From a virus: DNA of 35,776 nucleotides. The notes beneath the pieces are model-generated. The model saw only the letters and a program-made list of their open reading frames with translations. It ran no database searches and was not told where the DNA came from. Of this stretch, positions 6,076 to 28,626 are shown in pieces (positions within the stretch are counted from its first letter, which is position 1; each line of letters starts with the position of its first letter). The DNA is taken from positions 1-35,776 of the IMG/VR virus record IMGVR_UViG_3300026097_000053; one strand, written 5' to 3'. Made by a program: the position numbers and the translations under genes.

Positions 6076-9000
6076 ATGGCTATTACCAGAATCAAGAATA
6101 ACCAGATCACTGACAGCACTATTAATGCGGCTGCTAAACTATCTGATTTTTCAGTAACGGCAGGAAAACTTGCTAACAACATAACCTATGGGTCAGACTG
6201 GACTATTACAGGCAATCTAACAGTCAACGGGTCAACTACAACAGTTGATACTACCAATATGACTGTCGAAGATCCATTGTTGTTACTTGCTAGTGAACAA
6301 ACCGGAACTCCTGCACTAGATATTGGTTTTATCGGCGAGCGTGGCGATGACGATAACATAGCTCTTGTTTGGGACGAAGGTAGTGACGAATTTGTAGCGG
6401 CATTTATCAGCGACACCGAAAGCAACACAACAGTTACTATCACTAGTTATTCAGATTTTAAAGCTGGTAATATTGATGCGCAAGCAGGTATCCAGGCATC
6501 AACAACTATCACAGCAACCGGTAATGTAGCCGGCGGAAATATTACCACAGCTGGTGCAGTAGAAGCCGATGGCCTTATTAGTTCTGGTAGCACTATTACA
6601 GCTACAGGTAATGTAAGTGGTGGAAACTTAACAACTGCTGGCGATGTAACCACTGCTACAGTAACAGCTAGCGGCGCTATCTCAAGTGACACAACTATCA
6701 CAGCTACAGGAAATGTAAGTGGTGGTAATATCACAACAGCTGGTGCAGTAGATGCAACAGGTAATGTAACCGGTGGAAACTTAACCACAGCAGGTGATGT
6801 AACCACTGCTACAGTAACAGCTAGCGGCGCTATCTCAAGTGACACAACTATCACAGCTACAGGAAATGTAAGTGGTGGTAATCTTGTAAGCGCCGCTGAT
6901 GTTACAACAGTAAGTGTAACTGCCAGTGGCAATGTTGATGCAGGTAATGTAAATGCAACTAGCGGTATTACAGCCGGGACAACTGTAGTTGCTACTGGCA
7001 ACGTAACAGGTGGAAACTTAACCACAGCAGGTGATGTAACCACTGCTACAGTAACAGCTAGCGGTGCTATCTCGAGTGACACAACTATCACAGCTACAGG
7101 AAATGTAAGTGGTGGTAATATCACAACAGCTGGTGCAGTAGATGCTACAGGAAATGTATCAGGTGGAAATATTACCACAGGCGGTATAGTGTCCGCCACT
7201 GGTAATGTATCAGGTGGAAATATTACCACAGCTGGTGATATGAATGCAACCGGCAATGTCAGTGCTGATAATGTGATCACAGATACAGTAACTAATTCTG
7301 GAGTATTAACTGTTTCAACCACATCAGGAAACATTGTTCTTAATCCGTCAGGTGGTGCAGTTCTAATAGGATCGAGTCAAGTAAAAGAAGTAGCTAACCC
7401 AACCAGTGCGCAGGATGCTGCTACAAAACAGTATGTTGATGATGCTGTGAGTTCAGGTTTAACAATTCACGATCCGGTGCGAGTTGAAAGCCCAGACTCC
7501 GACGGCGATATTGGTGCTACCTATGCACAAGGCGGTAATACATTTACTGTAACAGATGTAGTAGCACCTGATACTGTGGTATTTTCTACCGCTGCCAATT
7601 TACAAGTTAATGATCAATTATGGTTTACCAACAGTTTTAATGGTGTAGTAGCCGATACTGCTTTCTTTGTGGTTAGTGCTCCGAATACCAGTGCTGCTGT
7701 GCTTACTAGAAACTACAACGGTGAAGCAGTAGGCAACTTAACAAATGCTACTAGTTTAACACAAAGTGTACGGGTAAACAGCGGCCAAGGAGCAACACTT
7801 ACTGCTACGGCCAATGGTGCTATTACCGTAGATGGTATTACATTAAGTGTGTCAGATCGTGCATTGATCTACAATCAAAACGAGGCGTACGAAAACGGTG
7901 TGTATGTTGTTACACAGACTGGTAATGCTACCGCACCATTTATCTTAACACGTTCATCTGACATGGACACATATATTCCAGACAATGTTAATGGTTTTGA
8001 TTCTGGCGACTATTTCTTTGTAGAAGAAGGCGACGGAGGTGCTGGTGAATCTTATGTATTGACTGATCCAGTTGGACCTGTTGTCATTGGTTTAGACTCT
8101 GTGACATTTACAAAATTTGCAGAAAGTCAGGTATACAGTGCAAATACATCAGCAGGGTTAGTTCTCAACGGAACAGTTTTTTCTGCAAAAGTTGACGGGA
8201 TAACCACATCTTTTGATGGAAGTGGTAATATAATTGTTAAAGCCAGTGCTAATCTTACGACTCCAAACATTGGCGCCGCAACTGGCACAAGTTTAAATGT
8301 CACTGGTAACGTAACAGGCGGAAATCTTGTTACAGCAGGTGATGTAACCACTGCTACGGTTACAGCAAGCGGCGCTATCTCAAGTGACACAACTATCACA
8401 GCTACAGGAAATGTAAGTGGTGGCAACTTAACCACTGCTGGAGACGTAACCACTGCTACTGTAACAGCAAGTGGCAACGTAACTGGTGGTAACTTAACCA
8501 CAGGTGGTTTAGTAGATGCAACCGGCAACGTCTCGGGTGGCAATTTGACCACTGCTGGAGACGTAACCACTGCTACTGTAACTGCAAGTGGTAACGTAAC
8601 TGGTGGTAATTTATTAACCGGCGGAGATGCTGACGTTACAGGCACTGTAACCGGCGCTAATATTGTTTCCAGCGCACTCACCGACGGTCGTGTAGTGCTA
8701 GCAGGCACCAGTGGAATATTAGAAGACAACACCAACTTAACTTTTGATGGTACTGTATTAACTGTCACAGGTAATGTTGCAGCAGGCAACATCAGTGCCA
8801 GTGGTATTGCAACTGTTACTGGCAACGTAACTGGTGGAAATCTTGTTACAGCAGGTGATGTAACCACTGCTACGGTTACAGCTAGTGGTGCAATCACAGG
8901 TAATAGCATTGATATCACAGGGCAAAGCGATTTTGACAACATTCGCGTAGACAACAATGATATTACTGCACACACAGGCGGTATCATTACATTCAACGAT

Positions 9001-10476
9001 GCAGGCGCCGATGTAGACTTCCGTTTCGAGGGGGCAGGCGATGCTAACTTGTTGGTGTTGGATGCAAGTGCAGACGAAATTGTTATTGGTAATGCTACTC
9101 CAGTAACCGGTGCCAAACTTGCAATTAGAACCACAGATAGTATTTTGGTGCCAGTAGGCACCACATCAGAGCGTCCAGGTACACCAGCTCCTGGTATGAT
9201 ACGTTTCAACAGTCAGTTGGATACCTTAGAATTTTACGACAACGACAGTTGGACAACGGCTGGCAGTGAATTTACAGTTATTGGCAGCGAAACATTTAAT
9301 GGTGACGGATCAACTGTAGCATTTACACTCAGTGACGAGCAAACAACTGCAAGTTGTATTGTGAGCATCAACGGTGTTGTTCAGCTTCCAACCACTGCAT
9401 ACAGTGTAAGTAGCACAACTCTTACATTCACAGAGGCTCCATTAAGTGGCGACGTAATTGAAGTTCGCAAACTAACAACCACTTCAACTGTTACAGCGTT
9501 GGTATCATCAGACACCACTTCTGAAGTAAACGCAGACGGTGGAGGAGCAGTAAGAATTGTAGGTAACCTAATACCTAATGCTAACGTCACTTTCAATCTT
9601 GGTAATACCACCACTCGCTGGAATGAATTATTCCTAGCAGGTAATACCATTACAATGGGCGATGTTGTAATGAAGGATACCGGCGGTGCTATTGGATTCT
9701 TTGGCAGCAACGGAACTACACCAATTCCAGTTGACTCAGGAAGTGTTGATGCAACATCTATTGCCAACGGCACCAGTGAACTAGCTGTTATTGCCAGTGG
9801 CGGTAACATTCGTGCAAACGTAGGTGGATCTACTGTAGGGTTATTTACAAGCAGTGGATTTACAGTTACTGGTACAATCAGTGCTAATAGTTTTGCTGGG
9901 TTAGATGCAACTAAAATTGAAGATGGTACTACTAACGTATCGATAGATTCAACTAATGGACCAGTTAGCGTTGATATTGGCGGTACTAACATATTGAATA
10001 TTGATAGCTCAGGTGTTATCAACGGTCAAGCAGACGGAGTAGGCAACATAGGTAATGCTACCACTGGATTTAACACTGTGTTTGCAAAAGCAACAAGTGC
10101 GCAGTATGCTGACTTAGCAGAAATGTACGCTGCAGATGCAGACATTGAGCCTGGTACAGTGGTTGTATTTGGGGGTAATGCCGAAGTTACAACTGCTACT
10201 ACTGAAAACGATAGTCGTGTAGCTGGGGTTGTTTCAACAAATCCAAGTTATTTGATGAACAGTGCAATTGATGCTGAATATCCAGTGGCAGTAGCACTTA
10301 CAGGTCGTGTACCTTGTAAAGTTTCAGGAACTGTATCCAAAGGCGACTTGATGGTATCCGGACCAAACGGGACTGCACAAATCAACAACAGTGCAACTGC
10401 TGGTACAATTATCGGCAAAGCATTAGAAAACAGCGAAGGCGATGCAGTTATTGAAGTAGTTGTTGGTCGTTTCTAA
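6076..10476 (+). CDS. Giant tail fibre protein, 1466 residues
   Basis: The N-terminus MAITRIKNNQITDSTINAAA is followed by a VNGSTTTVDTTN...EDPLLLLAS attachment-type segment. Residues about 140-440 and 740-960 are tandem GNVSGGNxTTAG repeats. Between them (about 450-720) lies a globular insertion containing a GLTIHDPVRV and ENGVYVVTQT pattern, which also begins the next fibre. Residues about 1021-1134 are the shared NGDGSTVAFTL module. The last 130 residues, from ATSAQYADLAEMYAADADIE, form a conserved end domain shared with the 658-residue fibre (EPGTVVVFGG, RVAGVVSTNP, LTGRVPCKV, VVVGRF). That end may be an autoprocessing or trimerising tip, unproven. The gene has its own late promoter and terminator. 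Confidence 0.85.
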   Translation: MAITRIKNNQITDSTINAAAKLSDFSVTAGKLANNITYGSDWTITGNLTVNGSTTTVDTTNMTVEDPLLLLASEQTGTPALDIGFIGERGDDDNIALVWDEGSDEFVAAFISDTESNTTVTITSYSDFKAGNIDAQAGIQASTTITATGNVAGGNITTAGAVEADGLISSGSTITATGNVSGGNLTTAGDVTTATVTASGAISSDTTITATGNVSGGNITTAGAVDATGNVTGGNLTTAGDVTTATVTASGAISSDTTITATGNVSGGNLVSAADVTTVSVTASGNVDAGNVNATSGITAGTTVVATGNVTGGNLTTAGDVTTATVTASGAISSDTTITATGNVSGGNITTAGAVDATGNVSGGNITTGGIVSATGNVSGGNITTAGDMNATGNVSADNVITDTVTNSGVLTVSTTSGNIVLNPSGGAVLIGSSQVKEVANPTSAQDAATKQYVDDAVSSGLTIHDPVRVESPDSDGDIGATYAQGGNTFTVTDVVAPDTVVFSTAANLQVNDQLWFTNSFNGVVADTAFFVVSAPNTSAAVLTRNYNGEAVGNLTNATSLTQSVRVNSGQGATLTATANGAITVDGITLSVSDRALIYNQNEAYENGVYVVTQTGNATAPFILTRSSDMDTYIPDNVNGFDSGDYFFVEEGDGGAGESYVLTDPVGPVVIGLDSVTFTKFAESQVYSANTSAGLVLNGTVFSAKVDGITTSFDGSGNIIVKASANLTTPNIGAATGTSLNVTGNVTGGNLVTAGDVTTATVTASGAISSDTTITATGNVSGGNLTTAGDVTTATVTASGNVTGGNLTTGGLVDATGNVSGGNLTTAGDVTTATVTASGNVTGGNLLTGGDADVTGTVTGANIVSSALTDGRVVLAGTSGILEDNTNLTFDGTVLTVTGNVAAGNISASGIATVTGNVTGGNLVTAGDVTTATVTASGAITGNSIDITGQSDFDNIRVDNNDITAHTGGIITFNDAGADVDFRFEGAGDANLLVLDASADEIVIGNATPVTGAKLAIRTTDSILVPVGTTSERPGTPAPGMIRFNSQLDTLEFYDNDSWTTAGSEFTVIGSETFNGDGSTVAFTLSDEQTTASCIVSINGVVQLPTTAYSVSSTTLTFTEAPLSGDVIEVRKLTTTSTVTALVSSDTTSEVNADGGGAVRIVGNLIPNANVTFNLGNTTTRWNELFLAGNTITMGDVVMKDTGGAIGFFGSNGTTPIPVDSGSVDATSIANGTSELAVIASGGNIRANVGGSTVGLFTSSGFTVTGTISANSFAGLDATKIEDGTTNVSIDSTNGPVSVDIGGTNILNIDSSGVINGQADGVGNIGNATTGFNTVFAKATSAQYADLAEMYAADADIEPGTVVVFGGNAEVTTATTENDSRVAGVVSTNPSYLMNSAIDAEYPVAVALTGRVPCKVSGTVSKGDLMVSGPNGTAQINNSATAGTIIGKALENSEGDAVIEVVVGRF
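6643..7115 (+). repeat. Tandem 83-bp coding repeats in the giant fibre gene
   Basis: An 83-bp unit starting GATGTAACCACTGCTACAGT occurs at 6643-6725, 6796-6878 and 7033-7115. The first two copies are identical and the third has two changes. Diverged copies lie at 8341-8423 in the same gene, 11295-11377 in the 658-residue fibre, and a form 18 bp shorter at 12784-12848 in the 161-residue fibre. All encode shaft repeats. Near-identity at the DNA level, including silent positions, points to recent duplication or gene conversion. Confidence 0.85.
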
Positions 10477-10489
10477 ACAATCAATACTG

Positions 10490-10521
10490 AAAAATAGGGC
10501 GTTTGTTAGCCCTATTTTTTT
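10490..10521 (+). terminator. Rho-independent terminator after the giant fibre gene
   Basis: A perfect 10-bp stem AAAATAGGGC/GCCCTATTTT with an 8-nt loop is followed by a T run. It lies 14 nt after the stop of the 1466-residue fibre gene and isolates it from the next unit. Confidence 0.9.
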
Positions 10522-10522
10522 G

Positions 10523-10530
10523 ACTAAATA
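10523..10530 (+). promoter_or_regulatory. Late-type promoter, ACTAAATA
   Basis: ACTAAATAT directly follows the terminator T-run and lies 23 nt upstream of the ATG at 10554. It has the TAAATA core shared by the other late-type sites in this window. Confidence 0.6.
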
Positions 10531-10553
10531 TATGATATTAGAATGGTAGACAT

Positions 10554-12530
10554 ATGGGATTAACTAGGCCTCGCGCTCATCAACTTCAAGACTTGGATTA
10601 CAAACAAGCTGTACGAGTAATAACCACAACCAATGTAACTCTCAGTGGCGGAGCTCCAAATGAAGTTGACGGAGTTAGTCTTAGTTTAGGCGATAGAATT
10701 CTTGTTGCTGGGCAGACTGACGGCGCAGAAAACGGCATTTATCAAGTAACTACAGTGGGTGCTGGCAGCTCGGGCACCTGGGCGAGAACTGCCACAGCAG
10801 ACGAAGACGGCGAGATCAATGCTGGTATGATCGTCATGGTTACAGAAGGCACTGTCAATGCCGATGTCCAATGGAAATTGATTACAGATGATCCTATCGT
10901 AGTTGGCACCACAGAATTAGAATTTACCCAAGCCAGTGCAGATGCATTTGGTATTATAAATGCAGATGGAACAAATATAATCGCTGACAGTGTAGGTGAT
11001 ACTGTTACACTTTCTCCTGGTAATAATATCAGCATCACGGGTAACGCTGCTAGTGATACCATTACCATTGGGGTAACAGGTATTGCACTTGACAGTATCA
11101 GCAACGGAACAAGCAATGTAAGTGTAGTTAGTAGTGGCGGAAATATAACTGTAGGCATAGGCGGAAGTGAGGTAGCTGAATTTTCAAGTTCTTTACTTAC
11201 AGTAACTGGCAACGTAAGTGGTAGCAATATCACAACAGGTGGTGTTGTTGATGCAACTGGTAATGTAAGTGGTGGAAATATTACCACAGCTGGCGATGTA
11301 ACCACTGCTACGGTAACTGCAAGTGGTGCTATTTCAAGTGAAACAACAATCACAGCCACAGGTAATATAAGTGGTGGTAATATCACAACAGGTGGTGTTG
11401 TTGATGCAACTGGTAATGTAAGTGGTGGAAATATTACCACAGCTGGTGATCTCAGTGTTAGTGGCCTGTCAACCTTATCTGGCAATGTAAGGATACAAGG
11501 GCAAAATCAACTGCAATTTTTTGATTCTGATAGCAGTCATTACGTTTCATTTAAAAGTGCCAATACAGTAAGTGCAAATGTTAACTGGACACTTCCAAAT
11601 GCCGACGGAAGTAACGGTCAAGTATTAAGCACTAACGGAACTGGTGACTTAGTTTGGATTACTGTTGGCGGTGGAGGAGGCGGTGACATAACATGGACTA
11701 CCGTTGCAAATGTTCCTCCAGTTAGCCCGGGCCCCGGAGATTTTTGGTATGATAGTTTCAGTCAAATTAAGTACCAATATATCAATGACGGAACCAGCAA
11801 TGTTTGGGTAGATCAAACTCCTCCTACAACATTTAGTTCGCTTAGTACAGGTCAGATTATAAACGCCAGCGCAAATGGAGTAGGAAACATTGGAACATCC
11901 GGCGGTAGATTTGATAGTGTATTCGCTGGATTTTTTGTAGGAGATGGTAGTCAATTAACTGGTTTGCCCGCGGGTTACACAGACGATGATGTAGCATCAT
12001 TTCTTAGTTCATTTGGTAGTAATACAATATCTACTACCGGTAGCATCAGTGCCAGTTCGTTTGGTAAAACAGGTTCCAACGGAATAGGCAATATTGGATC
12101 ATCTTTAAATACATTTAACACTGTGTTTGCAAAAGCAACCAGCGCACAATATGCTGACTTAGCAGAAATGTACACATCTGATTGTAACTATGAACCAGGA
12201 ACAGTTGTTGTATTTGGTGGAGATCAAGAAATCACACAAAGCATAAAATCTCACGATACAAGAGTTGCCGGAGTTGTATCCACTAACCCAGCTTTTGTAA
12301 TGAATTCTACAATCAATAACAAACTGGATTTGCCTGTAGCGTTTACAGGAAGAGTTCCTTGTTGGGTACAAGGACCAGTTGATAAAGGTGATGTATTGGT
12401 TACTGGCGAACAAACAGGCACAGCGCAGCGAATAAATAGTTGGAAGCCAGGGTGTGTAGTTGGTAAAAGTTTAGACAGGATTGATAACAATGAAATTAAA
12501 AAAATTGAAGTAGTGGTAGGGAGATTTTAA
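10554..12530 (+). CDS. Tail fibre protein, 658 residues
   Basis: Residues 1-130 form the module beginning MGLTRPRAHQLQDLDYKQAV, with LGDRILVAGQTDGAENGIYQ and VTEGTVNADVQWKL, a segment widespread in phage fibres and also present inside the 1466-residue fibre. GNVSGGNITT repeats follow at about 215-300. At about 386-423 lies a GDFWYDS...INDGTSNVWVDQ segment like the decorations in the sheath. The C-terminal 135 residues, from ATSAQYADLAEMYTS, are the same end domain as in the giant fibre, finishing in VVVGRF. The stop overlaps the next ATG by one base. This is probably a second receptor-binding or side fibre, paralogous at both ends with the giant fibre. Confidence 0.82.
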   Translation: MGLTRPRAHQLQDLDYKQAVRVITTTNVTLSGGAPNEVDGVSLSLGDRILVAGQTDGAENGIYQVTTVGAGSSGTWARTATADEDGEINAGMIVMVTEGTVNADVQWKLITDDPIVVGTTELEFTQASADAFGIINADGTNIIADSVGDTVTLSPGNNISITGNAASDTITIGVTGIALDSISNGTSNVSVVSSGGNITVGIGGSEVAEFSSSLLTVTGNVSGSNITTGGVVDATGNVSGGNITTAGDVTTATVTASGAISSETTITATGNISGGNITTGGVVDATGNVSGGNITTAGDLSVSGLSTLSGNVRIQGQNQLQFFDSDSSHYVSFKSANTVSANVNWTLPNADGSNGQVLSTNGTGDLVWITVGGGGGGDITWTTVANVPPVSPGPGDFWYDSFSQIKYQYINDGTSNVWVDQTPPTTFSSLSTGQIINASANGVGNIGTSGGRFDSVFAGFFVGDGSQLTGLPAGYTDDDVASFLSSFGSNTISTTGSISASSFGKTGSNGIGNIGSSLNTFNTVFAKATSAQYADLAEMYTSDCNYEPGTVVVFGGDQEITQSIKSHDTRVAGVVSTNPAFVMNSTINNKLDLPVAFTGRVPCWVQGPVDKGDVLVTGEQTGTAQRINSWKPGCVVGKSLDRIDNNEIKKIEVVVGRF

Positions 12531-13015
12531 TGGCATTTCCGACGAGCCCAGTTGACGGACAAAAAGCCAGTGTAAATGGCATAACCTATATTTACAATTC
12601 AGCAATTCCTGCTTGGACTGTAAATAGTACTTTTTTAGAAAGTTTTTCTGGAAATTTACTAATCGCTAACAATATATCAACAGCCAACTCTATAACTGCC
12701 GACGAATTAAGTGTTGGGCCAATTTCAGCAACTGATGTCACAGTCACAGGTAATGTAAGTGGTGGCAACTTGACCACAGCAGGTGATGTAACCACAGCTA
12801 CAGTAACAGCTAGCACAACTATCACAGCTACAGGAAATGTAAGTGGTGGAAACTTAACCACAGGTGGCAATGTTGAAGCCAATTTTTTCTTTGGAAACGC
12901 CAGTCAACTTACTGGTATTGCTATCAGTTCTACTGAACTGGTTGATTCCCAAAGATTAGATATTAGAAACTCCTCAGGTAATATAGTATTGACAATTTTT
13001 GGCGCAGGATCTTAA
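12530..13015 (+). CDS. Short fibre protein with shaft repeats
   Basis: This 161-residue protein starts in a TAATG overlap with the previous stop. It begins MAFPTSPVDGQKASVNGITY, a short form of the fibre 'DGQ...NGITYIYNSA.PAW' segment. It then carries two to three GNVSGGNLTT repeats encoded by a copy of the 83-bp repeat that has lost 18 bp in frame, and a tail with a GNASQLTGIAIS segment found before the tip in many fibres. It ends in LTIFGAGS. It lacks the large end domain of its neighbours, so it may be a fibre fragment, an adaptor, or a product of recombination between fibre genes. Confidence 0.65.
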   Translation: MAFPTSPVDGQKASVNGITYIYNSAIPAWTVNSTFLESFSGNLLIANNISTANSITADELSVGPISATDVTVTGNVSGGNLTTAGDVTTATVTASTTITATGNVSGGNLTTGGNVEANFFFGNASQLTGIAISSTELVDSQRLDIRNSSGNIVLTIFGAGS

Positions 13016-13030
13016 TAAGATAAGTAAAGT

Positions 13031-13933
13031 ATGGCATTTGTAAGACCACTTTACTACAACGCTGGTGTCTTAGAAGAAATGACCGATACACACATTGAGT
13101 CATATAGAACACGATGCAAATTTCTTTTTCTCAACAATCCTTCTGTGTTTTTGAGTGTTGTTGCGTCTGGCGGAAGTTTGGGCAACATTGCAGACACAAG
13201 ATTAATAGCCGGAGCAAGTACTTCAAGAGTTGATCGATTTGCTACAGCCCCGGAAACTCCTAATGTGCAAGTAGCAACAGTTCAATACGGTAGAGTAGAT
13301 GAAACTGTCGAAAGCACAACTGCACCTAATGATGGTTCTGGTTACAGTTTTCCCTTGTACTATGACGGTGCAGGAGCCTTGCAGGCAATGACTTTGCAAG
13401 ATGTTTATGATACATTTGCAGAAGAAGCAATTTTAGGATTGGACGCATCGGGAGAATTATACACTATAAGCACCTCGGCATCCGTGTCCGGATATACCAG
13501 TCTGGGAATTATATTTTCTGATACTGGTGCAAATGTTGCAGCTTATACTGCAGGCGGAATTCCTGAAGCCCAAGATCAGCCTTTTACTAGGTTCGATTAT
13601 TATCTACATCAAAGAAACGCAGTTTCGTCATCATATGATGTAAATGTTGCAAAATATGACGGATCCGGCGTGCAAGAAATGACAGAACTAGAAATTGATA
13701 ATATATTGGAGCCGGCGGTAAGACATCTGGCAACTTCGGTTACTGGCTTTAGTTTACGTTTTAGCTGGAACGGAACAGGTGTTGAAACAGGGATTATAAA
13801 TGATACAAGATTGAATGGTACTGGTAATTATCAACAACGTTTTGTTAACACCAATGATTATCGGACTCAAGAATTTCCCAATGGAAGTTTTGTAACAGAA
13901 AACACATATGAATTAAGGGTCAGAAAAGAATGA
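13031..13933 (+). CDS. Virion protein of three tandem ~95-residue repeats
   Basis: The 300 residues divide into three related units, starting near residues 5, 106 and 203. Each opens with a Tyr-rich segment and a Gly turn followed by a Met-Thr helix (PLYYNAGVLEEMTDTHIESY; PLYYDGAGALQAMTLQDVYD; VAKYDGSGVQEMTELEIDNI), and each ends in aromatic beta strands, the last as TYELRVRKE. There is no signal peptide or known enzyme motif. Its place in the fibre operon and a 4-nt ATGA overlap with the next gene suggest a tail or baseplate-associated structural or fibre-assembly protein. I do not know the family name. Confidence 0.65.
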   Translation: MAFVRPLYYNAGVLEEMTDTHIESYRTRCKFLFLNNPSVFLSVVASGGSLGNIADTRLIAGASTSRVDRFATAPETPNVQVATVQYGRVDETVESTTAPNDGSGYSFPLYYDGAGALQAMTLQDVYDTFAEEAILGLDASGELYTISTSASVSGYTSLGIIFSDTGANVAAYTAGGIPEAQDQPFTRFDYYLHQRNAVSSSYDVNVAKYDGSGVQEMTELEIDNILEPAVRHLATSVTGFSLRFSWNGTGVETGIINDTRLNGTGNYQQRFVNTNDYRTQEFPNGSFVTENTYELRVRKE

Positions 13934-14418
13934 TTTTAGGCAACGGCGAGTTTACAGAAGCTTATTTTGTAGACAGTGACAACAGACAAATCGAAGCTGT
14001 GTTTCACGATTTTGATGATGATAAGTTTTTTAATTTGATAATAAAAGTTGATTTGGAAAACGAAAACTACAAAAAATTATTGGAACAATTTAATCTTGTG
14101 CAAATAAAGAAAATGACTGACGAACGCAAAGAGTTTGAAAATCAAAAATTTTTAAATGTAGTAAAAGATGTTGCGCAACAAAGTGGACTAATATACGACC
14201 CAGAAAATGCGGATGCAGAAAATCGTTTAAGGGTTGACCATATTTTTGAACTTCCAGAAGGTGAGTTCGGTGAAGAGTTTTTATTTAATCTTAAATTGAG
14301 AGTTTTCGAAATGGATGAGGTAATGAACTCTGAAGATGCAGATCTGAAGAAAAAACTTAGAGAAGCAAAGACGCCTCTTGAAAGTTTGTACATTGCAGGA
14401 AAGTTCTTATACGAATAG
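13930..14418 (+). CDS. Acidic fibre-operon protein, function unknown
   Basis: This 162-residue protein starts in an ATGA overlap with the previous gene. It is acidic and helical in its middle (EFENQKFLNVVKDVAQQSGL) and C-terminal parts (long charged stretch with DLKKKLREAKTP), after a small beta-rich N-terminus. It lacks the Asn/Gly repeats of its neighbours, so it is not a fibre shaft. As the last gene of the fibre operon it could be a fibre-folding or assembly chaperone, by analogy with T4 gp38/gp57A positions only; no homology is claimed. Its 3' end overlaps the convergent glycosyltransferase gene by 12 nt. Confidence 0.6.
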   Translation: MILGNGEFTEAYFVDSDNRQIEAVFHDFDDDKFFNLIIKVDLENENYKKLLEQFNLVQIKKMTDERKEFENQKFLNVVKDVAQQSGLIYDPENADAENRLRVDHIFELPEGEFGEEFLFNLKLRVFEMDEVMNSEDADLKKKLREAKTPLESLYIAGKFLYE

Positions 14419-15075
14419 TTCGTAATATTTCCATCGATGAGGAAGATTTTCGCTGTGGGTAAAATGCGCAAATTTAATATCACTGTGAAACTCTTTTCCT
14501 AAAAACATATACGGATTTCCAGTCACATCCTTATATTTGCAATTTAATTTTTTTAAGTTATCATCTTTAAACCGGCATACCCAAGATTCAGGCAAATAAC
14601 ACAATTTTAACTTTTCATTAACTGAATCTTCTATGAAGTGTTGTTCGCCATTTACGGGACCTGTTGTATATCCTTCATCTATGTATTTTCTTTGATAGTA
14701 TGCAGGGTTCTCCATGAACTTGTCATAGATGTACTTACAGTCGGTAGGGTAGTACTTGTAGAAACCCCCGTTAATCGTAAAGTGAGAATACTCAGTATCC
14801 TTCCACCAACTTTTAATAGTTAAGAACTCGCCTTTCTGTATGGGATGTTCAAAAATCTTTTTGTAATCGTTGAGTAATAAAATATCAATATCCATTACAC
14901 AGATGGGTTCATCCAGGTCCAGAGTCATACCGAACATCTTGTTCCATTGTAACTGAACATTGTCTTGTATAGGTTCTCTTACCCAAACAACCTCATACTC
15001 GGGCAACTTTCTCTCAAGATACTCTTCATACTCTGGACCATATCGGTCACCAATTCTAACACATACGATTTTCAT
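14407..15075 (-). CDS. Glycosyltransferase with DxD motif (GT-A-like)
   Basis: I choose the ATG at 15075, giving 222 residues starting MKIVCVRIGDRYGPEYEEYL. It overlaps the upstream stop by one base (TAATG) and aligns with the start of the paralog at 17001-17672 (MNIVCVKWG). The central ICVMDIDILLLND segment holds the Asp-x-Asp expected to bind metal and nucleotide sugar, followed by GGFYKYYPTD and a late His/Trp-rich region. This fits a small GT-A glycosyltransferase that adds a sugar in the cytoplasm. The acceptor is unknown; fibre proteins, DNA or a lipid-linked glycan are options. It is the last gene of a four-gene minus operon and runs convergently into the fibre operon. Confidence 0.7.
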   Translation of the reverse strand: MKIVCVRIGDRYGPEYEEYLERKLPEYEVVWVREPIQDNVQLQWNKMFGMTLDLDEPICVMDIDILLLNDYKKIFEHPIQKGEFLTIKSWWKDTEYSHFTINGGFYKYYPTDCKYIYDKFMENPAYYQRKYIDEGYTTGPVNGEQHFIEDSVNEKLKLCYLPESWVCRFKDDNLKKLNCKYKDVTGNPYMFLGKEFHSDIKFAHFTHSENLPHRWKYYELFV

Positions 15076-16367
15076 TAGTAGGACCCGTGCACAACCTCTT
15101 GCCTGAATGCATTTTTGCCTGAAACAATACAATTATCAATATCTAGATACTCGTTCCATCTTTCATGAATTTTTTCAATTGTATGCCGATGAATCATATA
15201 ATTATAACAGAAAATATTGGAAAAGTATAATAGATTTACTTTGTCTGTATCTATTTCTAGTTTTGAAATAGGGTCGGTAATTGCATCATACAAGATAAAC
15301 TTTGGGTTACTAATTTTATCAATGGTCTCTTCGATCATATCAGTAGAAAAGATTTTTTCATTGTCTTCTACTACTACGGGTTTATAGTCTGCGTTATCTA
15401 CAATAACGCCTTCTTTACGTTGATAATATCTTTCAACCGCATCAAGGTTCTTGAATTCATAGACCATGCGTTTCCAGTTCAAAGAGTCTTTATTCACATC
15501 AAAGAGAACAACTTCAGTATCCTCATGCCCATAATGATGATACAATAGCTCTGCAGTGAACCCAGACGCAGGCGCATAAATTACATCAAACTTCATGTGT
15601 GTTGGACGAATCATTTTGCTATACTTTTCATTGTTTTTAGTATATACAATATTATCGTTCTTTTTGCGTTCCATGTCTAACGCATCGCAATGTCTACGTT
15701 CTGGATAACAAAAAAACTTAACGTTTCGTTCTTTATCAAAGTTATAAATGGTTTGTCCATCCTCAATTACTTTTGAGATATATTCTGCCATGTCTGCTGA
15801 TCGCACCTGTTTGAATTGAGGATCTTTTGGAGGACACAACCAATGAGGTGTATAATCGTCGTGCACGTTACTCTTAGATCGGTCAGGCCAAATTACAGGA
15901 CCACTGTATTTTCCAAATAAGGGTTTGCCAATTTTCCTCCAATGGTCAAGGTTTAAAAACATGCACTGTTGATGCAACCTTGCATACGCATTTTTTTCAT
16001 GCCATAATATGTGACCCTTACACGGTTTGCCAGATTCGCAAAATTCGTCAAAGTATGTGTGGATGGTTTCTGGGCGACTTATTTCCCAATGATAGTAAAA
16101 AGTTCCGATGTAACTTACCATTGCATACTTGTATTTGTCAACATGTTGTACTGCCTCGTCGAGGTTTTTTGCAAATATCAAAGGTCCGCAACTTTTTGCT
16201 TTTCCTCTTCCAATGCCAGAATACCAAGTTAGGGTTGCCATATATTCTGCATAATCATCCCATTTAATTTTAGGATAGTCTACAATAATATGCACCTGTT
16301 CAGAATCTCTTGTGTTGTGACCTGAGTTTTCTAAAATGTATTGACTAAATTCTTCAAATGACTGCAT
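15075..16367 (-). CDS. Two-part protein with C-terminal Rossmann (methyltransferase-like) region
   Basis: This 430-residue protein starts at an ATG overlapping the upstream oxygenase gene by 14 nt. The N-terminal half (about 25-240) contains aromatic and His/Cys-rich segments such as WYSGIGRGKAKSCGPLIFAK and LWHEKNAYARLHQQCMFLNL, reminiscent of phage glycosyltransferase-like proteins. The C-terminal half has a FDVIYAPASGFTAELLYHHY segment and a VVLFDVNKD strand, which looks like the nucleotide-binding loop and acidic strand of a SAM-dependent or NAD-type Rossmann fold. A fusion of transferase and methyltransferase is a reasonable guess, but neither half shows a decisive catalytic motif to me. 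Confidence 0.5.
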   Translation of the reverse strand: MQSFEEFSQYILENSGHNTRDSEQVHIIVDYPKIKWDDYAEYMATLTWYSGIGRGKAKSCGPLIFAKNLDEAVQHVDKYKYAMVSYIGTFYYHWEISRPETIHTYFDEFCESGKPCKGHILWHEKNAYARLHQQCMFLNLDHWRKIGKPLFGKYSGPVIWPDRSKSNVHDDYTPHWLCPPKDPQFKQVRSADMAEYISKVIEDGQTIYNFDKERNVKFFCYPERRHCDALDMERKKNDNIVYTKNNEKYSKMIRPTHMKFDVIYAPASGFTAELLYHHYGHEDTEVVLFDVNKDSLNWKRMVYEFKNLDAVERYYQRKEGVIVDNADYKPVVVEDNEKIFSTDMIEETIDKISNPKFILYDAITDPISKLEIDTDKVNLLYFSNIFCYNYMIHRHTIEKIHERWNEYLDIDNCIVSGKNAFRQEVVHGSY

Positions 16368-17004
16368 TGGGGTGTTCCTGGTAGAATGAATCTATAAAAA
16401 GTTGTTTGCGTTGTTTATTGGTACCACCATGAATGATAAAGTGAATACGTGGTTCTCGCGAAAAGTTTGCTGCTTCGTGAAACGGGCCGTTATTAAACCA
16501 ATATACTTCTCTGGGTTTAAATGGAACCTCTAACATGTCTTCTGTTCTGCGTAGGTAACAGTTTTCTGGTTGTGTAATCGCAATATTAATTGCAGACATT
16601 ACATTGTTTTTCAAAGGTCTTCCTTTTTTCCACTGGTGAGTATCGGTATGACTGCGAATAAATCCGCCAGGTTCTAACAACATGAAACGACACCTACCAT
16701 ACATACCATTGTTGGGAAAAGTATCTTTTAACCACTCTGTCATTGTGGGTGCATACTCAGTTAACTCAGTCCACTGATAATTAAAAGAGTCCGGATTAAA
16801 GGTGGTAACATGCATTCCTTCTCCGTGTAGAGTAGCTGACTTCCACCCCCGACCATGCATCGCACGATGATCTACAAATAGTCCTCTGTCGTATATTTCT
16901 AATGCTTCGGCAACGACAGTTTCTGGTATTTGGATATCTGCACGAAGATAGAATAACTCATCATCATCGCACCATTTTTTTACTTTGTCAAATTCTTGTG
17001 TCAT
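16354..17004 (-). CDS. 2OG-Fe(II) oxygenase, Asp/Asn beta-hydroxylase-like
   Basis: I start it at the ATG at 17004 (MTQEFDKVKKW, 216 residues), which overlaps the upstream stop as ATGA; a start 21 nt earlier is possible. The Fe(II)-binding triad is visible: His119 and Asp121 in GGFIRSHTDTHQ, and His176 in FNNGPFHEAANFSREPR, with Arg186 placed to bind 2-oxoglutarate. The E(V)YWFNN-x-x-x-H-x-A-x-N order is typical of the aspartyl/asparaginyl beta-hydroxylase family. It probably hydroxylates a side chain or small molecule with O2 and 2-oxoglutarate. Sitting between glycosyltransferases, it could create a hydroxyl acceptor for sugar addition; that is inference. Confidence 0.75.
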   Translation of the reverse strand: MTQEFDKVKKWCDDDELFYLRADIQIPETVVAEALEIYDRGLFVDHRAMHGRGWKSATLHGEGMHVTTFNPDSFNYQWTELTEYAPTMTEWLKDTFPNNGMYGRCRFMLLEPGGFIRSHTDTHQWKKGRPLKNNVMSAINIAITQPENCYLRRTEDMLEVPFKPREVYWFNNGPFHEAANFSREPRIHFIIHGGTNKQRKQLFIDSFYQEHPNAVI

Positions 17005-17672
17005 TTCCAATAGTCCTTCACCCAAGAGTCCGCCTGTTCATTTTTTAAATCTTGATTTAATATGCAAACTTCGTAGTCTGTTCTTAATTTTTCTGGTTCT
17101 TCGTCTTTGCCGTATCTTGCACCTAACTGGTACGAATACGCAATCGACGACGGTAAAATGTCAATATCTACAGGGTCGTTGAAAAAAAATCTATCAATTC
17201 CTTGATGATATTTTAATAAGATTCTGTCTTGATTTTTTTTGAAATATTGATACGTGCTTATACCTTGTTGACCTGTCCATTTCATAATTGATGAATTGTA
17301 TAATGTCGGAGTTGCATGTTTTTCTGTATACGGATACAAATAATCAGATTTCCATTGAGAGTATAGAACCGAAAGTGTTCTAGTTTTAATTGAACATAAC
17401 TTTTCCAATGGGTTTAATATTACCACATCTAAATCAAAATAAATAGTGTCGCCTTGCGTAAATAAGTTTAATAAATCTAATTTAGGCCACACACCTTGTA
17501 AATTAGAATCTATTGGTATTTTTATTGTTTGAATATTTTTGAGATCGACGGCGCAATCCGTGTAACAATAAAACTCAAAAGGGATCGGCATGTTTCGTGA
17601 GACCATACTGTATAACTTATGCACATAGTCAACAGAATATTTTGGTCCCCATTTTACGCAAACAATATTCAT
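17001..17672 (-). CDS. Glycosyltransferase with DxD motif, paralog of 14407-15075
   Basis: This 223-residue protein begins MNIVCVKWGPKYSVDYVHKL and contains a CYTDCAVDL segment and GDTIYFDLDVVILNPLEKL. The Asp-Leu-Asp is the DxD motif of GT-A glycosyltransferases. The N-terminal strand-loop matches the protein at 14407-15075, so the two are likely duplicates that diverged to different donors or acceptors. It is the first gene of the minus operon. Its start lies 29 nt from the plus-strand operon start at 17702, so divergent promoters must be packed into that short gap or inside the coding regions. No clear -35/-10 pair is visible there. Confidence 0.72.
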   Translation of the reverse strand: MNIVCVKWGPKYSVDYVHKLYSMVSRNMPIPFEFYCYTDCAVDLKNIQTIKIPIDSNLQGVWPKLDLLNLFTQGDTIYFDLDVVILNPLEKLCSIKTRTLSVLYSQWKSDYLYPYTEKHATPTLYNSSIMKWTGQQGISTYQYFKKNQDRILLKYHQGIDRFFFNDPVDIDILPSSIAYSYQLGARYGKDEEPEKLRTDYEVCILNQDLKNEQADSWVKDYWK

Positions 17673-17701
17673 ACTTTACTTAACCAGATGTGGAGAAAGG
17701 A

Positions 17702-18415
17702 ATGATAATTTTACCTCAGGTGAATGAAAACAACAAATGTATACTACAAAGCAACGGTTTTTCGGCATCAGACTGGGTAAGAACACTGTATATATTAAAT
17801 TGTTTCAATAACCAATATGCAAACTTTGACAATTTTGTCTATCTGTATGCACCTTTTTTTGAACTAATTGCAAAAGAATATTATTCTAATACTGAGGTTA
17901 ACGTATTACATACAAATGAAATTGCAATATTTGACGAATTTCGCCTGGCAGATTGCTATCAGATATTCAACGAAGCCTGTAAATATTTTAAAGCAAAGAA
18001 CAAAGTTGCTATGTTAGAATTAGAAGACTATAATTATCTAAATGGAGATAATTTAATACGAGATCATCATCGCTACAATCTTTACAGTGGACTGCAGAAA
18101 ATTATGGTGCAATCCACAAAATTTTCGGGCTTACAAGAAGTAGTAAACCAGAACTACACTATTGTTCTTATGAGCCCATATCCAAATAATAAAATTACTC
18201 AAAACAAGTTTTTTGATGTTGCTAACCGTCCTGCTAATGTGTATGATCCATTTTTGGGCATCTCCTATAAACAATTCTTGGAATTTATGAATATCGAAGA
18301 TAAACAAAAAATACAACAAGTTCATGCTCAGTTGTTACCTAACCTCAATCACATTGGACCTTTCAATGAAATTGATATAGAATATTATCTTAACCCAAAT
18401 AATTTTGATGATTGA
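17702..18415 (+). CDS. Unknown protein at the head of the aminotransferase operon
   Basis: I use the ATG at 17702 (MIILPQVNENNKCILQSNGF, 237 residues) because GGAG lies 6 nt upstream; a GTG at 17690 is in frame but less likely. The protein is rich in Asn, Tyr and Phe, with a LYILNCFNNQ segment and a TIVLMSPYPNNKI strand. I see no catalytic signature or membrane helix. The last 8 nt overlap the aminotransferase start. Its end (FNEIDIEYYLNPNNFDD) looks like the N-terminal helix-loop missing from the DegT-type protein that follows, so the two may be parts of one ancestral gene or act as a pair. Confidence 0.6.
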   Translation: MIILPQVNENNKCILQSNGFSASDWVRTLYILNCFNNQYANFDNFVYLYAPFFELIAKEYYSNTEVNVLHTNEIAIFDEFRLADCYQIFNEACKYFKAKNKVAMLELEDYNYLNGDNLIRDHHRYNLYSGLQKIMVQSTKFSGLQEVVNQNYTIVLMSPYPNNKITQNKFFDVANRPANVYDPFLGISYKQFLEFMNIEDKQKIQQVHAQLLPNLNHIGPFNEIDIEYYLNPNNFDD

Positions 18416-19463
18416 AGAAAAAATTTCAGAGTTGACAAAAAGAAAATATGTGGTTCCTGTTCGCTCTGGTACAGACGCATTGTATTTGTCGCTGGTTGCT
18501 AGTGGAATACAAAAAGGTGACAAAGTTTTAGTATCCAATTTTTCATGGATATCTACTGCATCTTGTATCACTATGGTAGGTGCTACTCCGGTATTTTGCG
18601 ATATCGATTTGAATACCTATCACATGTGCTTACAAAGTATTCGCAGAATGGTTTCTCCAGATACCAAGGCTTTGATATTTCCTCATTTATTCGGATCAAT
18701 GATGGAAACCGATCAACTGGTTGATTTTTGCAAAGAAAGAAAAATAATTTTAATCGAAGATGCCTGTCAGGCAGTAGGATCTAGTCTCAATGGAGTTCCT
18801 GCAGGATCCATTGGAGATATTTCAACTTTTAGTTTTAATTTAAACAAAGTTGTATCAGGCATAACCGGCGGCGGAGCGGTATTAACCGACAATGAAAAAT
18901 ATGCACAATATCTACATAAAATATCTCATCATGGTTATAATGGAATAGATTTTGAATTTCTTGGCATCAACGCAAAGATGTCAGAAATTGACAAAGATGC
19001 AATTTGTAAACAGCTTGGCTTCTTAGAAAAAACCAATCAAAAAAGAAATAATCTTGCTAAAAACTACGATAATTTTTTTGCATCGTTGCCAGTTAAATTG
19101 CAAAAAACACCCAAAGGTATTTGTAATAATCATCACAAATATACCGTACGATTTAATACAAAAGAGGTTAGAGACAAAGTTCAAAAGATTCTAAATTGTA
19201 AAATTCATTACCCAATGCCTATTTCAGAAAACACAATGTACCGAGACATTGTTCATCAGAAAGACAAGTGTGTCAATGCTAAATTAGTGTCGGACACAAT
19301 TTTAACTTTGCCAATGGATTCTAATTCGCTTCCTGTGGATGATATCTACAAGTTATTAGTTGAAAAAATAATAACACAACCTGATTACGCGATGGAAGAT
19401 ATCAATCAATATACCAAGGATAATCTGCATAATGCCTTATATGACATTGCAAGATCTCAATGA
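18408..19463 (+). CDS. DegT/DnrJ/EryC1/StrS-family PLP aminotransferase
   Basis: The start is the ATG at 18408, inside the end of the upstream gene (351 residues). Family landmarks are present in order: SGTDAL at 20-25, VSNFSWISTAS, EDACQAVGSS at 117-126, the likely PLP lysine Lys147 in SFNLNKVVSGITGGGAV, and a C-terminal KIHYPMPIS segment typical of substrate binding. Such enzymes transfer an amino group from glutamate to a keto sugar attached to a nucleotide. The N-terminus is about 25-30 residues shorter than usual for the family. The operon also encodes a GNAT-like protein, which fits making an N-acylated amino sugar. The dehydratase for the keto sugar is not here and would have to come from elsewhere in the phage or the host. 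Confidence 0.88.
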   Translation: MIEEKISELTKRKYVVPVRSGTDALYLSLVASGIQKGDKVLVSNFSWISTASCITMVGATPVFCDIDLNTYHMCLQSIRRMVSPDTKALIFPHLFGSMMETDQLVDFCKERKIILIEDACQAVGSSLNGVPAGSIGDISTFSFNLNKVVSGITGGGAVLTDNEKYAQYLHKISHHGYNGIDFEFLGINAKMSEIDKDAICKQLGFLEKTNQKRNNLAKNYDNFFASLPVKLQKTPKGICNNHHKYTVRFNTKEVRDKVQKILNCKIHYPMPISENTMYRDIVHQKDKCVNAKLVSDTILTLPMDSNSLPVDDIYKLLVEKIITQPDYAMEDINQYTKDNLHNALYDIARSQ

Positions 19464-20250
19464 CAATTATCTAGCAATAGATTTTTTCTTGTCTAAGTCG
19501 TGCAACAAGTCCTGCTACTATTGCACTACATATACGTTAGAACAAAGAAATTTAACTGTTGATTTGGACTTTCTAGTACGTGTGTTAGAATATTTTAAAA
19601 AATACAAGGTAAGAATCAATTTACTAGGTGGCGAACCTGCATTAATAAAAAATTTACAACAGGTTACATCCGAGATACAGAAGTATGATAATTTTGTGTG
19701 TTGTGTTTTGTCAAATTCTCTTGTAAGACGTAAATATCCTTACATTTTAGAAGATTCTAAAATCTTTTACTTCGAACACATTGTACTAGACTTTTATCAA
19801 GATAAAATAAAAAAGTTAGGAAAATTTGATTTTTTTGCCAAGAACAAAAACAACAATTATAATGTTGTAATCAAGACTCCCAATTACAACAAGTATAGAC
19901 GTAATTTTCCAGAAGAAATAGCAAAACTTAATCATGAAAACACAATGTTCAAAGAATACAATTCAAGGTCTCCGGAATATAGTGTAATTTATCAATCACC
20001 AGAGATTGATAGAAGACTGTGTGCAAAGTTTCCTAAAGTGCCTGTGATTGATTTTGAAAACAAAAGTATTCGACATTGTAGCAAAAGAACCCAAGATTCT
20101 AGAACATTTAAAGTAAATCAAAACAATGTAGATGAAATGATGAATTTTAAGTTGTTTAAATATGAAACTTATTGTGAAACCTGTTGCGAAAAAATTAACA
20201 ACTTTTCTTTTAACAAATATTTGGATATTATCGAAACACATGCAATATAA
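19432..20250 (+). CDS. Radical SAM protein, short form
   Basis: This 272-residue protein overlaps the aminotransferase by 32 nt; an alternative ATG at 19441 would still overlap. It has CNKSCYYC (Cys24, Cys28, Cys31), the iron-sulfur binding motif, and GGEP at about 66-69. The C-terminal region is cysteine-rich (HCSK, then CETCCEK near residue 245), suggesting an auxiliary cluster of SPASM or twitch type. The overlap means expression is tied to the aminotransferase. Radical SAM enzymes next to sugar aminotransferases can perform deoxygenation or epimerisation, but peptide modification is equally open. It is related only in the core motifs to the larger radical SAM protein at 541-1839. Confidence 0.82.
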   Translation: MPYMTLQDLNDNYLAIDFFLSKSCNKSCYYCTTYTLEQRNLTVDLDFLVRVLEYFKKYKVRINLLGGEPALIKNLQQVTSEIQKYDNFVCCVLSNSLVRRKYPYILEDSKIFYFEHIVLDFYQDKIKKLGKFDFFAKNKNNNYNVVIKTPNYNKYRRNFPEEIAKLNHENTMFKEYNSRSPEYSVIYQSPEIDRRLCAKFPKVPVIDFENKSIRHCSKRTQDSRTFKVNQNNVDEMMNFKLFKYETYCETCCEKINNFSFNKYLDIIETHAI

Positions 20251-20797
20251 AATGGTTGAATATTCAGAAACCTTGGATCTCTCTAATTTTTATTCTTTAG
20301 CAAAAGCAAAAGGATTTAACAACAATTGTAGCAAAGAGAAATTGATTGATTGTTTTGCAAATGAGAGAGAACATCAAGTTTGGATTTTATATTACAACAA
20401 TAATCCTGTAGGCTCAGTAGCAGCTCATTCTTTTGACGAAATGGGTAAAAACAGCTATAGAATAGCAGCAAGAACTTGTGTATTAACAGATGAAATTCCA
20501 ACACCAACTCTGCGAACACGAAATCAAATTGTTACCCAGCAACATGTAACAGGACAATTTTTAATACCAGCATGCATAGAATGGGCTGGAAAAGATTCCA
20601 ATCTATATTGTACATCAAACAATCTGGGATCAAAAAGTCAGAAACGTGTGCACAATATTTTTTTTCCTGCTTTAGAAAAGGCTGGACAAGTAGAAAGAAT
20701 CTGTAATATGATGTATCGCGGAGATTTACAAACTGTTTGGAAATTGAATGTTAGTAATTTTTACAAGGTTTTACATAAGTATAAAAGATGGACGTAA
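20240..20797 (+). CDS. GNAT-like acyltransferase, tentative
   Basis: The likely start is the ATG at 20240 (MQYKMVEYSETLDL, 185 residues), which overlaps the previous stop region; an ATG at 20252 is an alternative. An earlier in-frame ATG at 20162 would overlap the radical SAM gene deeply and reads as out-of-frame sequence. The segment QVWILYYNNNPVGSVAAHSF looks like the central strands of a GNAT fold, followed by a conserved-looking RTRNQIVTQQHVTGQFLIPA and SNNLGSKSQKRVHN. The classical Arg-x-x-Gly-x-Gly acetyl-CoA loop is not clear. If it is an acyltransferase, it would complete an amino sugar made by the aminotransferase upstream. Confidence 0.5.
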   Translation: MQYKMVEYSETLDLSNFYSLAKAKGFNNNCSKEKLIDCFANEREHQVWILYYNNNPVGSVAAHSFDEMGKNSYRIAARTCVLTDEIPTPTLRTRNQIVTQQHVTGQFLIPACIEWAGKDSNLYCTSNNLGSKSQKRVHNIFFPALEKAGQVERICNMMYRGDLQTVWKLNVSNFYKVLHKYKRWT

Positions 20798-20820: not shown

Positions 20821-21495
20821 ATGATTCAAGAAAGATACCGTAAAGATTACGATGGCGAGTTTGTTATTATTCAAACCATTATTAAAAACGGTCAAAAACT
20901 GCAAGAACGTGAGTGGATACCCAACCCTATTAGCAATAACCATATCAGTGCTCGAGCTGCTGTTATAGGAGCAGGTACTAGTAGAGAGCGATTTCCAATA
21001 ATAAAGTTACAAGGACACAAAGGTGGATTGTTAGGCAAAAAACGTTTACAAATCTACGGCAGTGAAGGGTGTTGGAGAGAACTACAGTGCGATTTCTATG
21101 TAGACACTGTGTCTAATGACTTGTCCGATATTATCTACAGCGATTATAATAATCGTGTAGCAGTGTACACAAACGCTAAAAAATGCATGGCCTATCCTGG
21201 CAAGTTTTATATGATACCCTACAATGTTAATTTAATTAGCGATGCAGCATTGGCCATGTATGTGGCTGCATTTGACGGACATAAAGAAATATACTGTATT
21301 GGCGTCGACGGATTAGACAGCAAAGGATCTGTTAGTCGTAAAGCAGTGGCACACATTGGCAGTGTAATTAAAGCCTATCCTAAAACAAAATTCATATTTG
21401 TAAACAATACTAGCAATCTATATCCATTATGGAGACAGTGTTCTAACTATCAACACATGTCCTATAAGAAATTTGTCACCAACTGTGATGTCTGA
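20821..21495 (+). CDS. MptE/DUF115-like protein, second copy
   Basis: This 224-residue protein has an AAAAAGG-type ribosome-binding site. After an N-terminal extension of about 45 residues it shows AAVIGAGTSRERFPIIKLQG, a GxGxSR-type loop as in the protein at 2523-3110, followed by CDFYVDTVSND, a MIPYNVNLISDAALAMYVAA segment and EIYCIGVDGLD. The order (GxGTSR, xFYVDT, SDAALA, IYCIGVDG) parallels the other copy and the MptE/DUF115-type enzymes. It may be a pyrophosphokinase-like or sialyltransferase-like transferase; the substrate is unknown. Its 3' end overlaps the convergent Nudix gene by 34 nt, and a strong terminator lies in that overlap. Confidence 0.5.
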   Translation: MIQERYRKDYDGEFVIIQTIIKNGQKLQEREWIPNPISNNHISARAAVIGAGTSRERFPIIKLQGHKGGLLGKKRLQIYGSEGCWRELQCDFYVDTVSNDLSDIIYSDYNNRVAVYTNAKKCMAYPGKFYMIPYNVNLISDAALAMYVAAFDGHKEIYCIGVDGLDSKGSVSRKAVAHIGSVIKAYPKTKFIFVNNTSNLYPLWRQCSNYQHMSYKKFVTNCDV

Positions 21496-24991: not shown

Positions 24992-25387
24992 TTACACCTC
25001 CTCCAAGTCTGCATACTGTTCGTAGGGCAGTGGCTCACAGTCATCTGGCAATCCACGCTTCAACTCTGCTTCCCACTCAGCCGCGGCCCGCTCCTCTTCA
25101 TACTGTGCGTTCAACTGAGCACAGATGTTGTCGTAGGTGGCCTCCATGTCCTCGATAGTCATCTCATCCCACGCCAACCGCAAGCGGCAACCGTAGAGGT
25201 CCTTGCTCGCATCCGAGATGCTGTTGATCAGCTGACTACGCTCGAAGTCTTCCACAGTGTGCACACCCTGGTCCGCCCAATGGCTCATGTCGTCCGTGTA
25301 CTTGCTCATCCACAGGCCTGGCTCCTGCTCCATGAGCAGATCAGCTTTGGCGTTAAGTGACTCAATGTGTTGAAGAAGTGTGATCAT
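24992..25387 (-). CDS. Unknown acidic protein on a GC-rich patch
   Basis: This 131-residue protein begins MITLLQHIESLNAKADLLME, is helical and acidic, and has a QEPGLWMSKYTDDMSHWADQ segment and a C-terminal acidic tail. The DNA is visibly more GC-rich than its surroundings, with many GCC/CGC/CTC codons, so the gene may come from a different source. It is the first gene of a minus unit driven by the promoter at 25422-25449, with GGAG about 10 nt before the ATG. I recognise the general pattern from marine T4-like phages but not a function. An early regulatory or host-takeover role would suit its promoter type. Confidence 0.62.
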   Translation of the reverse strand: MITLLQHIESLNAKADLLMEQEPGLWMSKYTDDMSHWADQGVHTVEDFERSQLINSISDASKDLYGCRLRLAWDEMTIEDMEATYDNICAQLNAQYEEERAAAEWEAELKRGLPDDCEPLPYEQYADLEEV

Positions 25388-27518: not shown

Positions 27519-28105
27519 TGCGAGCAAACGAGTTTTTAAACGAAGCTGGTAAAGTTGATACAACTGGATACAAGTTGGTTAAAAAAACCAATGATGTAGA
27601 GCTTTGGATTAATCAAACAGATCCATCAGAAGCAATCGCTATTTTAGACGACGGCGCCTGGGATGGATATAAAATGGATAACGAACCAACTTGGGAGTTT
27701 GAAAAACGCCGCGGCCGTTATGGGTATTTCACTGTAGATAATTTAGATCAATTGTTTGAAATAAAATTATCTGAGCATAAAATGATTTGGAGTCGTTCAG
27801 GCAACAAGCTCAAGCTCAAATATCGTTGTGCCAGTGGACCCAAAGCAGGTCGCATTGTGCCCGATCCTGGTGCATGTGCAGCTCCAAAAGACCTAGCTCG
27901 AGCCGCACAAATGAAACGCACTAGAGCTACCACAAAAGTGCGAGCAGCTCGTAAATCTAAGAAAACCAAACGTGTTAATCCTGCTAGCAAAATACTCGCT
28001 AGATTAAACTCACTTACGAAAACCAAGTCTGCTCCGAAAAGCCAAGTGGTTCGCATGACGAGCAAGAGCACAAAGAAAGCAAAAAAACCCAGTAAACCCA
28101 AATGA
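27518..28105 (+). CDS. Protein with Lys/Arg-rich C-terminal tail
   Basis: The chosen ATG at 27518 overlaps the gp13 stop (TGATG) and gives 195 residues starting MRANEFLNEAGKVDTTGYKL. The N-terminal half (to about 95) is a compact alpha/beta region. The second half, after a CASGPKAGRIVPDPGACAAP segment, is strongly basic (KVRAARKSKKTKRVNPASKI and a Lys-rich end), as in DNA-compacting or internal head proteins. The 'MRAxEFLxEA' start is shared, as I recall, by several proteins of marine T4-like phages and could be a capsid-targeting tag; this is uncertain. It is likely to be packaged with, or bind, DNA. Confidence 0.62.
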   Translation: MRANEFLNEAGKVDTTGYKLVKKTNDVELWINQTDPSEAIAILDDGAWDGYKMDNEPTWEFEKRRGRYGYFTVDNLDQLFEIKLSEHKMIWSRSGNKLKLKYRCASGPKAGRIVPDPGACAAPKDLARAAQMKRTRATTKVRAARKSKKTKRVNPASKILARLNSLTKTKSAPKSQVVRMTSKSTKKAKKPSKPK

Positions 28106-28626
28106 AAATAGAATTTGGATGCGGTGCAACTCCTACTAAAAAAGATTTTTTAACCTGCGACATACGTGATCTTCCAGGAATAGATTACATATGTCCAGCA
28201 TGGGAAATATCAGATCATGTTGCCTTTGACTCGGTTGACGAAATATTCAGCAGACATTTTCTTGAACATTTAACTTTTGTACAGGCTGAAAAATTAGTCA
28301 ATGTGTGGTATAAAATTCTCAAACCCAGTGGAGTATGTGAACTGCTTGTACCTAACATGGAATTTCATATCAACCAGTGGATTCACGCTTTTGCCAATGG
28401 AGTGAACACTGACAAAGATAAAAATAAACTAAAACATGCTTACGCAGGGTTCTGGGGTCATCAGCGTGAAGGCGAATATCAAGTATGGGACGTACACAAA
28501 AGCGGATACAACCAGTACACACTCACAGAACTTTTTGTTAACGCTGGATTTGTGCATCCAATAAATCATCGCAAAAACACAAACAAACATCTACACATGT
28601 CTTTCATGAAGCCGAGCATAAGTTAA
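28102..28626 (+). CDS. SAM-dependent methyltransferase, type 11-like
   Basis: This 174-residue protein starts in an ATGA overlap with the previous gene. Motif I is EFGCGATPTKKDFLTCDIRD, giving a GCG loop and the acidic strand end; then a VDEIFSRHFLEHLTF segment (post-motif and motif II region) and LVNVWYKILKPSGVCELLVP, the strand-turn that is typical of class I methyltransferases of the UbiE/type 11 group. It probably transfers a methyl group from S-adenosylmethionine to a small molecule or glycan. It is shorter than usual, with little room for a substrate domain. It sits in a tight four-gene operon from gp13 to the hydrolase. Confidence 0.72.
   Translation: MKIEFGCGATPTKKDFLTCDIRDLPGIDYICPAWEISDHVAFDSVDEIFSRHFLEHLTFVQAEKLVNVWYKILKPSGVCELLVPNMEFHINQWIHAFANGVNTDKDKNKLKHAYAGFWGHQREGEYQVWDVHKSGYNQYTLTELFVNAGFVHPINHRKNTNKHLHMSFMKPSIS

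Follow-up and report, generated by a model that had tools for sequence, protein, structure and literature searches.

Among the known phage systems closest to the one analysed here are the host-recognition clusters of pelagimyophages, reportedly described by Zaragoza-Solas et al. According to the passages on these clusters in PMC7029224, tail fibres, GT8 glycosyltransferases and radical SAM cassettes lie together in a variable island of the structural region, host O-chain modification is the favoured role, and an Asp/Asn hydroxylase is reported as a core gene of pelagimyophages. Related chemistry is known from twitch radical SAM enzymes: BtrN, with an auxiliary cluster held by four Cys ligands, oxidises an amino-cyclitol, while MoaA, whose auxiliary-cluster site is open, performs no net oxidation (from part of PMC9012708). 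In mycobacteriophages, virions are glycosylated, with phage glycosyltransferases acting on structural proteins (capsid and tail tube; Freeman et al. 2023, cited by PMC12619734).

We analysed a 35,776-base virus record, a fragment of an incomplete genome that we call the window in its full length. At 14407-20797 it carries a cassette of two divergent gene sets with overlapping reading frames, a minus-strand and a plus-strand arm, whose open reading frames lie where they had been predicted. The window shares with the pelagimyophage clusters the presence of fibre genes, glycosyltransferases and a radical SAM gene in a single island; it differs in that its sheath and tail genes are nearest to Agrobacterium phage Atu_ph07 rather than to a T4-like pelagimyophage, and in that its set is compact, includes a GNAT gene and has no carbamoyltransferase in the cassette. 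VrlC and gp14, which border the pelagimyophage cluster, were not identified in the window. The original prediction that no such phage system had been described is thus right only in part: fibre-linked glycosyltransferase/radical SAM islands, GT8 members included, are already published (PMC7029224, as far as its cluster descriptions go), and the gene set of the window is a further variant.

Pelagibacter phage Mosig EXVC030M (MT647606, genes 00082-00097) has homologues of the aminotransferase (AT, 51%) and radical SAM enzyme (rSAM, 60%) of the window in the same adjacent order, together with two glycosyltransferase homologues and homologues of both fibre-region genes described below. Its region additionally holds nitroreductases, more radical SAM genes, a carbamoyltransferase, a methyltransferase and an epimerase, and the N terminus of its AT is complete, unlike that of the window. 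In butirosin biosynthesis the partner of BtrN is the DegT aminotransferase BtrS, and both this couple and the phage pair join a DegT aminotransferase to a twitch-type radical SAM enzyme with four auxiliary Cys; the phage rSAM, however, has no close sequence similarity, and the phage pair lies amid glycosyltransferases whereas BtrS/BtrN belong to an antibiotic cluster. We know of no AT-rSAM pair in mycobacteriophage virion glycosylation.

Genomic setting and the minus-strand arm

The source of the window is most likely a large myovirus: of its proteins, the tail sheath is nearest to that of Atu_ph07 (48.5% over 542 aa) and the gp3-like one to those of PA5oct-type phages and Atu_ph07. No near-identical DNA relative exists among the phage records, and the T4-type late promoter TATAAATA is absent from the window. 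Fibre-like genes occupy 4510-13933, as predicted for the upstream flank; they include g11 (13031..13933, +), and are followed by g12 (13930..14418, +), which is convergent with the minus arm and borders the cassette. Both recur near such cassettes, with homologues in 40 and 50 loci, respectively. The downstream flank, where neck genes had been expected, holds gene I, followed by a Nudix gene and then by the gene for the gp3-like tail protein. The GC content of the cassette (33.9%) is below that of the flanking fibre (41.9%) and structural (43.5%) stretches, suggesting that the cassette was acquired from a source of low GC. Elsewhere in the window, an open reading frame at 24992-25387 (-) stands well above its surroundings in GC (54.8%) and GC3 (70.5%) and is either spurious or foreign.

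The minus arm encodes two DxD glycosyltransferases, GT_A (14407..15075, -; start placed from its homologue in the viral contig L085) and GT_D (17001..17672, -). GT_D matches the glycosyltransferase family phrog_1962 (1.3e-9), GT_A is assigned by homology to GT_D (profile comparison probability 98.7, E 1.8e-16), and the DxD motif is invariant in 11 relatives; the two are distant paralogues, and paralogy had been part of the original prediction. Their GT8 similarity consists of weak glycogenin matches (best E 0.065). Between them lies C (16354..17025, -), an Asp/Asn beta-hydroxylase-type oxygenase whose 2OG-Fe(II) class was also correctly anticipated: it matches Pfam Asp_Arg_Hydrox (PF05118, 3.8e-9, 37 bits against a cut-off of 22.6) and conserves the Fe and 2OG ligands HxD...H...R as H126, D128, H183 and R193. 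The proposed two-part Rossmann protein, B (15075..16367, -; 430 aa), found no such backing, with no family match, a predicted model at pLDDT 41.9 and no PDB match at E<=0.001. Assignments of B as a methyltransferase or a glycosyltransferase were rejected as well, given no profile match and an unusable predicted fold.

Two further viral contigs share the arrangement, one of them in its minus arm alone. L085 carries g11, g12, GT_A, B, C, GT_D, E, AT and rSAM in the order and on the strands of the window, with another small gene after rSAM and fibre-like genes on either side of the island. L157 retains GT_D, C, B, an additional radical SAM gene and GT_A, which are convergent with its g12 and g11 genes. 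Identity to the window is 79% in L085, 67% in L157 and 31% in Mosig for GT_A, 67% and 51% in the two contigs for B, which keeps its position in both, and 59% and 47% for g12. The minus arm is therefore linked to g11/g12 in all three (window, L085 and L157). Because other genes replace AT and rSAM in L157, the minus and plus arms are separable modules. At 3663-6113 (-) of L157, a radical SAM-like gene lies between two others that each have a PP-loop-like motif, GGxxS, close to the N terminus.

The plus-strand arm

The plus arm opens with E (17702..18415, +), an orphan open reading frame of 237 aa whose start was placed from its sole relative, in L085 (27%), and which is the one gene missing from a predicted list that otherwise holds almost gene for gene. 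AT follows (18408..19463, +) and is the predicted sugar-type aminotransferase of the DegT/DnrJ/EryC1 family (PF01041, 1.7e-70, 238.5 bits against a cut-off of 19.8); its PLP lysine, K148, is invariant in 35/35 relatives, and by profile AT is closest, among solved structures, to sugar-type aminotransferases such as QdtB and WbpE. It lacks about 33 N-terminal residues (18408-18500; consensus WDREYL) that are found in 33 of the 35 sequences and are absent solely from the window and L085. The idea that the tail of E supplies this block was rejected: of 982 shuffled versions of this tail that were scored, 921 equalled or exceeded the real one.

The next gene, rSAM (19432..20250, +), encodes the predicted radical SAM enzyme (PF04055, 2.6e-8, over the cut-off), with CX3CX2C (C24, C28, C31) and GGE in 41/41 sequences and, in the same 41, four twitch-like auxiliary-cluster Cys (C197, C216, C248, C251; CX18C-gap-CX2C). 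The SPASM/twitch motif is CX9-15GX4C, with Gly five residues ahead of the second Cys, and sequence is a poor predictor of function across the group (both from part of PMC6231123). That Gly is missing from its place in rSAM, where the window has Lys, and similarity to BtrN is confined to the core (E 0.01). Another radical SAM gene of the window (541-1839, GC 33.6%) is of the NF033640 twitch type, over its own cut-off.

The core of rSAM also matches viperin models at about 1e-9, and phages are known to apply glycosyltransferases to DNA; a role in DNA or nucleotide hypermodification, or in viperin-like nucleotide antiviral activity, is nonetheless very improbable. The viperin score is 36.4 bits against a curated cut-off of 180, and neither a viperin nor a defence role is supported; the C-terminal domain has four additional Cys, the family of C is not a base hydroxylase family, and the cassette sits amid fibre genes.

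The arm continues with H (20240..20797, +), predicted as GNAT-like. Its AlphaFold model (pLDDT 69.5) has 141 Foldseek matches in the PDB at E<=0.001 (best E 1.3e-5), and nearly all of the top 50 of these are GNAT acetyltransferases; sequence search returns no GNAT Pfam domain. As modelled, H is a GNAT-fold, acyltransferase-like protein. Gene I (20821..21495, +), an orphan with which the arm may end, weakly resembles gene 2523-3110 (BLASTP, 7e-4). Gene 2523-3110 itself matches phrog_30607 (1.3e-29) and, weakly, a sialyltransferase family, so that a role in sugar metabolism is possible for both.

Recurrence of the AT-rSAM pair

A scan of viral contigs with the single AT sequence gave zero matches, and alignments including Mosig succeeded: two scans of IMG/VR, one for each protein, identified 265 and 263 stretches encoding a relative, of which the best 80 each were examined. 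AT is present in 79/80 loci fetched by rSAM and rSAM in 77/80 fetched by AT, counts that are not independent events because the two sets share loci and include near-duplicate contigs. The pair lies on the same strand in every locus examined, and AT and rSAM distances correlate (Mantel r 0.72, p 1e-4, 28 loci). Among 50,697 phage records rSAM occurs solely in Mosig, adjoining AT as in the window. A scan of some 85,000 species genomes yields just three relatives, each on a short contig of a marine MAG, and two of these contigs carry the same fibre-region families; because it rests on two conserved peptides, the scan would miss distant homologues. The AT-rSAM pair is thus a widespread marine-phage module. 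Scattering of the genes in relatives, which would have argued against a common pathway, is not seen: both the pair and the arm of two glycosyltransferases, oxygenase and B stay linked.

The surroundings of the pair vary. The gene after rSAM is usually a carbamoyltransferase (70/124 loci), where the window has the GNAT gene, and g11/g12 or another fibre-region family lies downstream in 34 of the 48 loci having at least 7.5 kb there. Methyltransferases, nitroreductases and extra radical SAM genes are common in the best loci examined, as are glycosyltransferases, which occur in about half of them. These glycosyltransferases, like those of the window cassette, count against an explanation that we consider unlikely, in which rSAM, AT and their partners would act on a protein or peptide itself, through side-chain oxidation followed by amination or acylation, and not on a free sugar. 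Certain SPASM/twitch enzymes do use peptides, C comes from a protein-hydroxylase family and part of the AT N terminus is lost, all in keeping with a peptide substrate; the closest families of AT are, however, sugar aminotransferases.

Proposed pathway and its acceptor

Probably, the two gene sets together serve to make an unusual amino sugar and to link it to a surface; enzyme families and position support a sugar-type pathway linked to the fibre genes, as originally proposed. We tentatively favour, at rather less than an even chance, a cassette that forms the modification arm of the host-recognition region of a large marine myovirus, with the neighbouring fibre proteins as the most likely target of the glycan. 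By analogy with the division of labour between BtrS and BtrN, the plus arm would make an acylated amino-sugar unit, in which rSAM would oxidise a ring hydroxyl to a ketone, AT would convert the ketone to an amine and H would acylate it. The minus arm would then place the unit, with GT_A and GT_D transferring sugars and C hydroxylating fibre Asp/Asn side chains to create new acceptor or tuning sites, so that fibre proteins would carry a glycan on the contact surface of the virion. The original prediction took the absence of a keto-sugar-forming enzyme to imply a host intermediate. This step is not supported, as the window is a genome fragment and a twitch-type rSAM is a plausible keto-former; the phage rSAM may itself supply the ketone for AT, and a host keto-sugar therefore need not be assumed. 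It counts against the pathway that no nucleotidyltransferase or sugar dehydratase is found among the genes scanned in this incomplete genome.

Modification of fibre proteins is supported by enzyme families with intact catalytic residues, by linkage, by the correlated distances of AT and rSAM and by adjacency to fibre genes. Counted against it are the absent Gly of the SPASM/twitch motif, the core-limited similarity to BtrN, the short N terminus of AT, and the published view that such islands modify the host O-chain (PMC7029224, in its interpretation of GT8-rich pelagimyophage islands). Under that last view, a possibility of which we are doubtful, the cassette would remodel host surface polysaccharide (an LPS core or O-chain sugar) and block competing phages or re-adsorption to debris. 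The carbamoyltransferase and methyltransferases of relatives are typical decorations of surface glycans and fit such a role, but no flippase or polymerase was identified within the cassette genes, the cassette directly adjoins fibre genes, and C is an oxygenase of the type that hydroxylates Asp/Asn in proteins.

Returning to fibre modification, its most specific form, a phage-specific AT-rSAM route common to marine phages that makes an amino sugar through radical oxidation and transamination with no classical dehydratase and places it, in the branch of the window, on enzymatically hydroxylated Asp/Asn of the tail fibres, seems improbable when taken as a whole. The pair is a candidate for a new amino-sugar route, and it may determine host range in abundant ocean phages. 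Our literature search, which covered few subscription journals, found no paper on the pair, and the available part of the Mosig announcement does not discuss the cluster. Mosig is an isolate, and would permit direct measurement of virion glycans. Another family of that phage, Mosig_00086, is present in 78/127 AT-rSAM loci from the best loci examined, and gene 28626-29336 of the window resembles it (8e-5), next to a methyltransferase-like gene (28102-28626).
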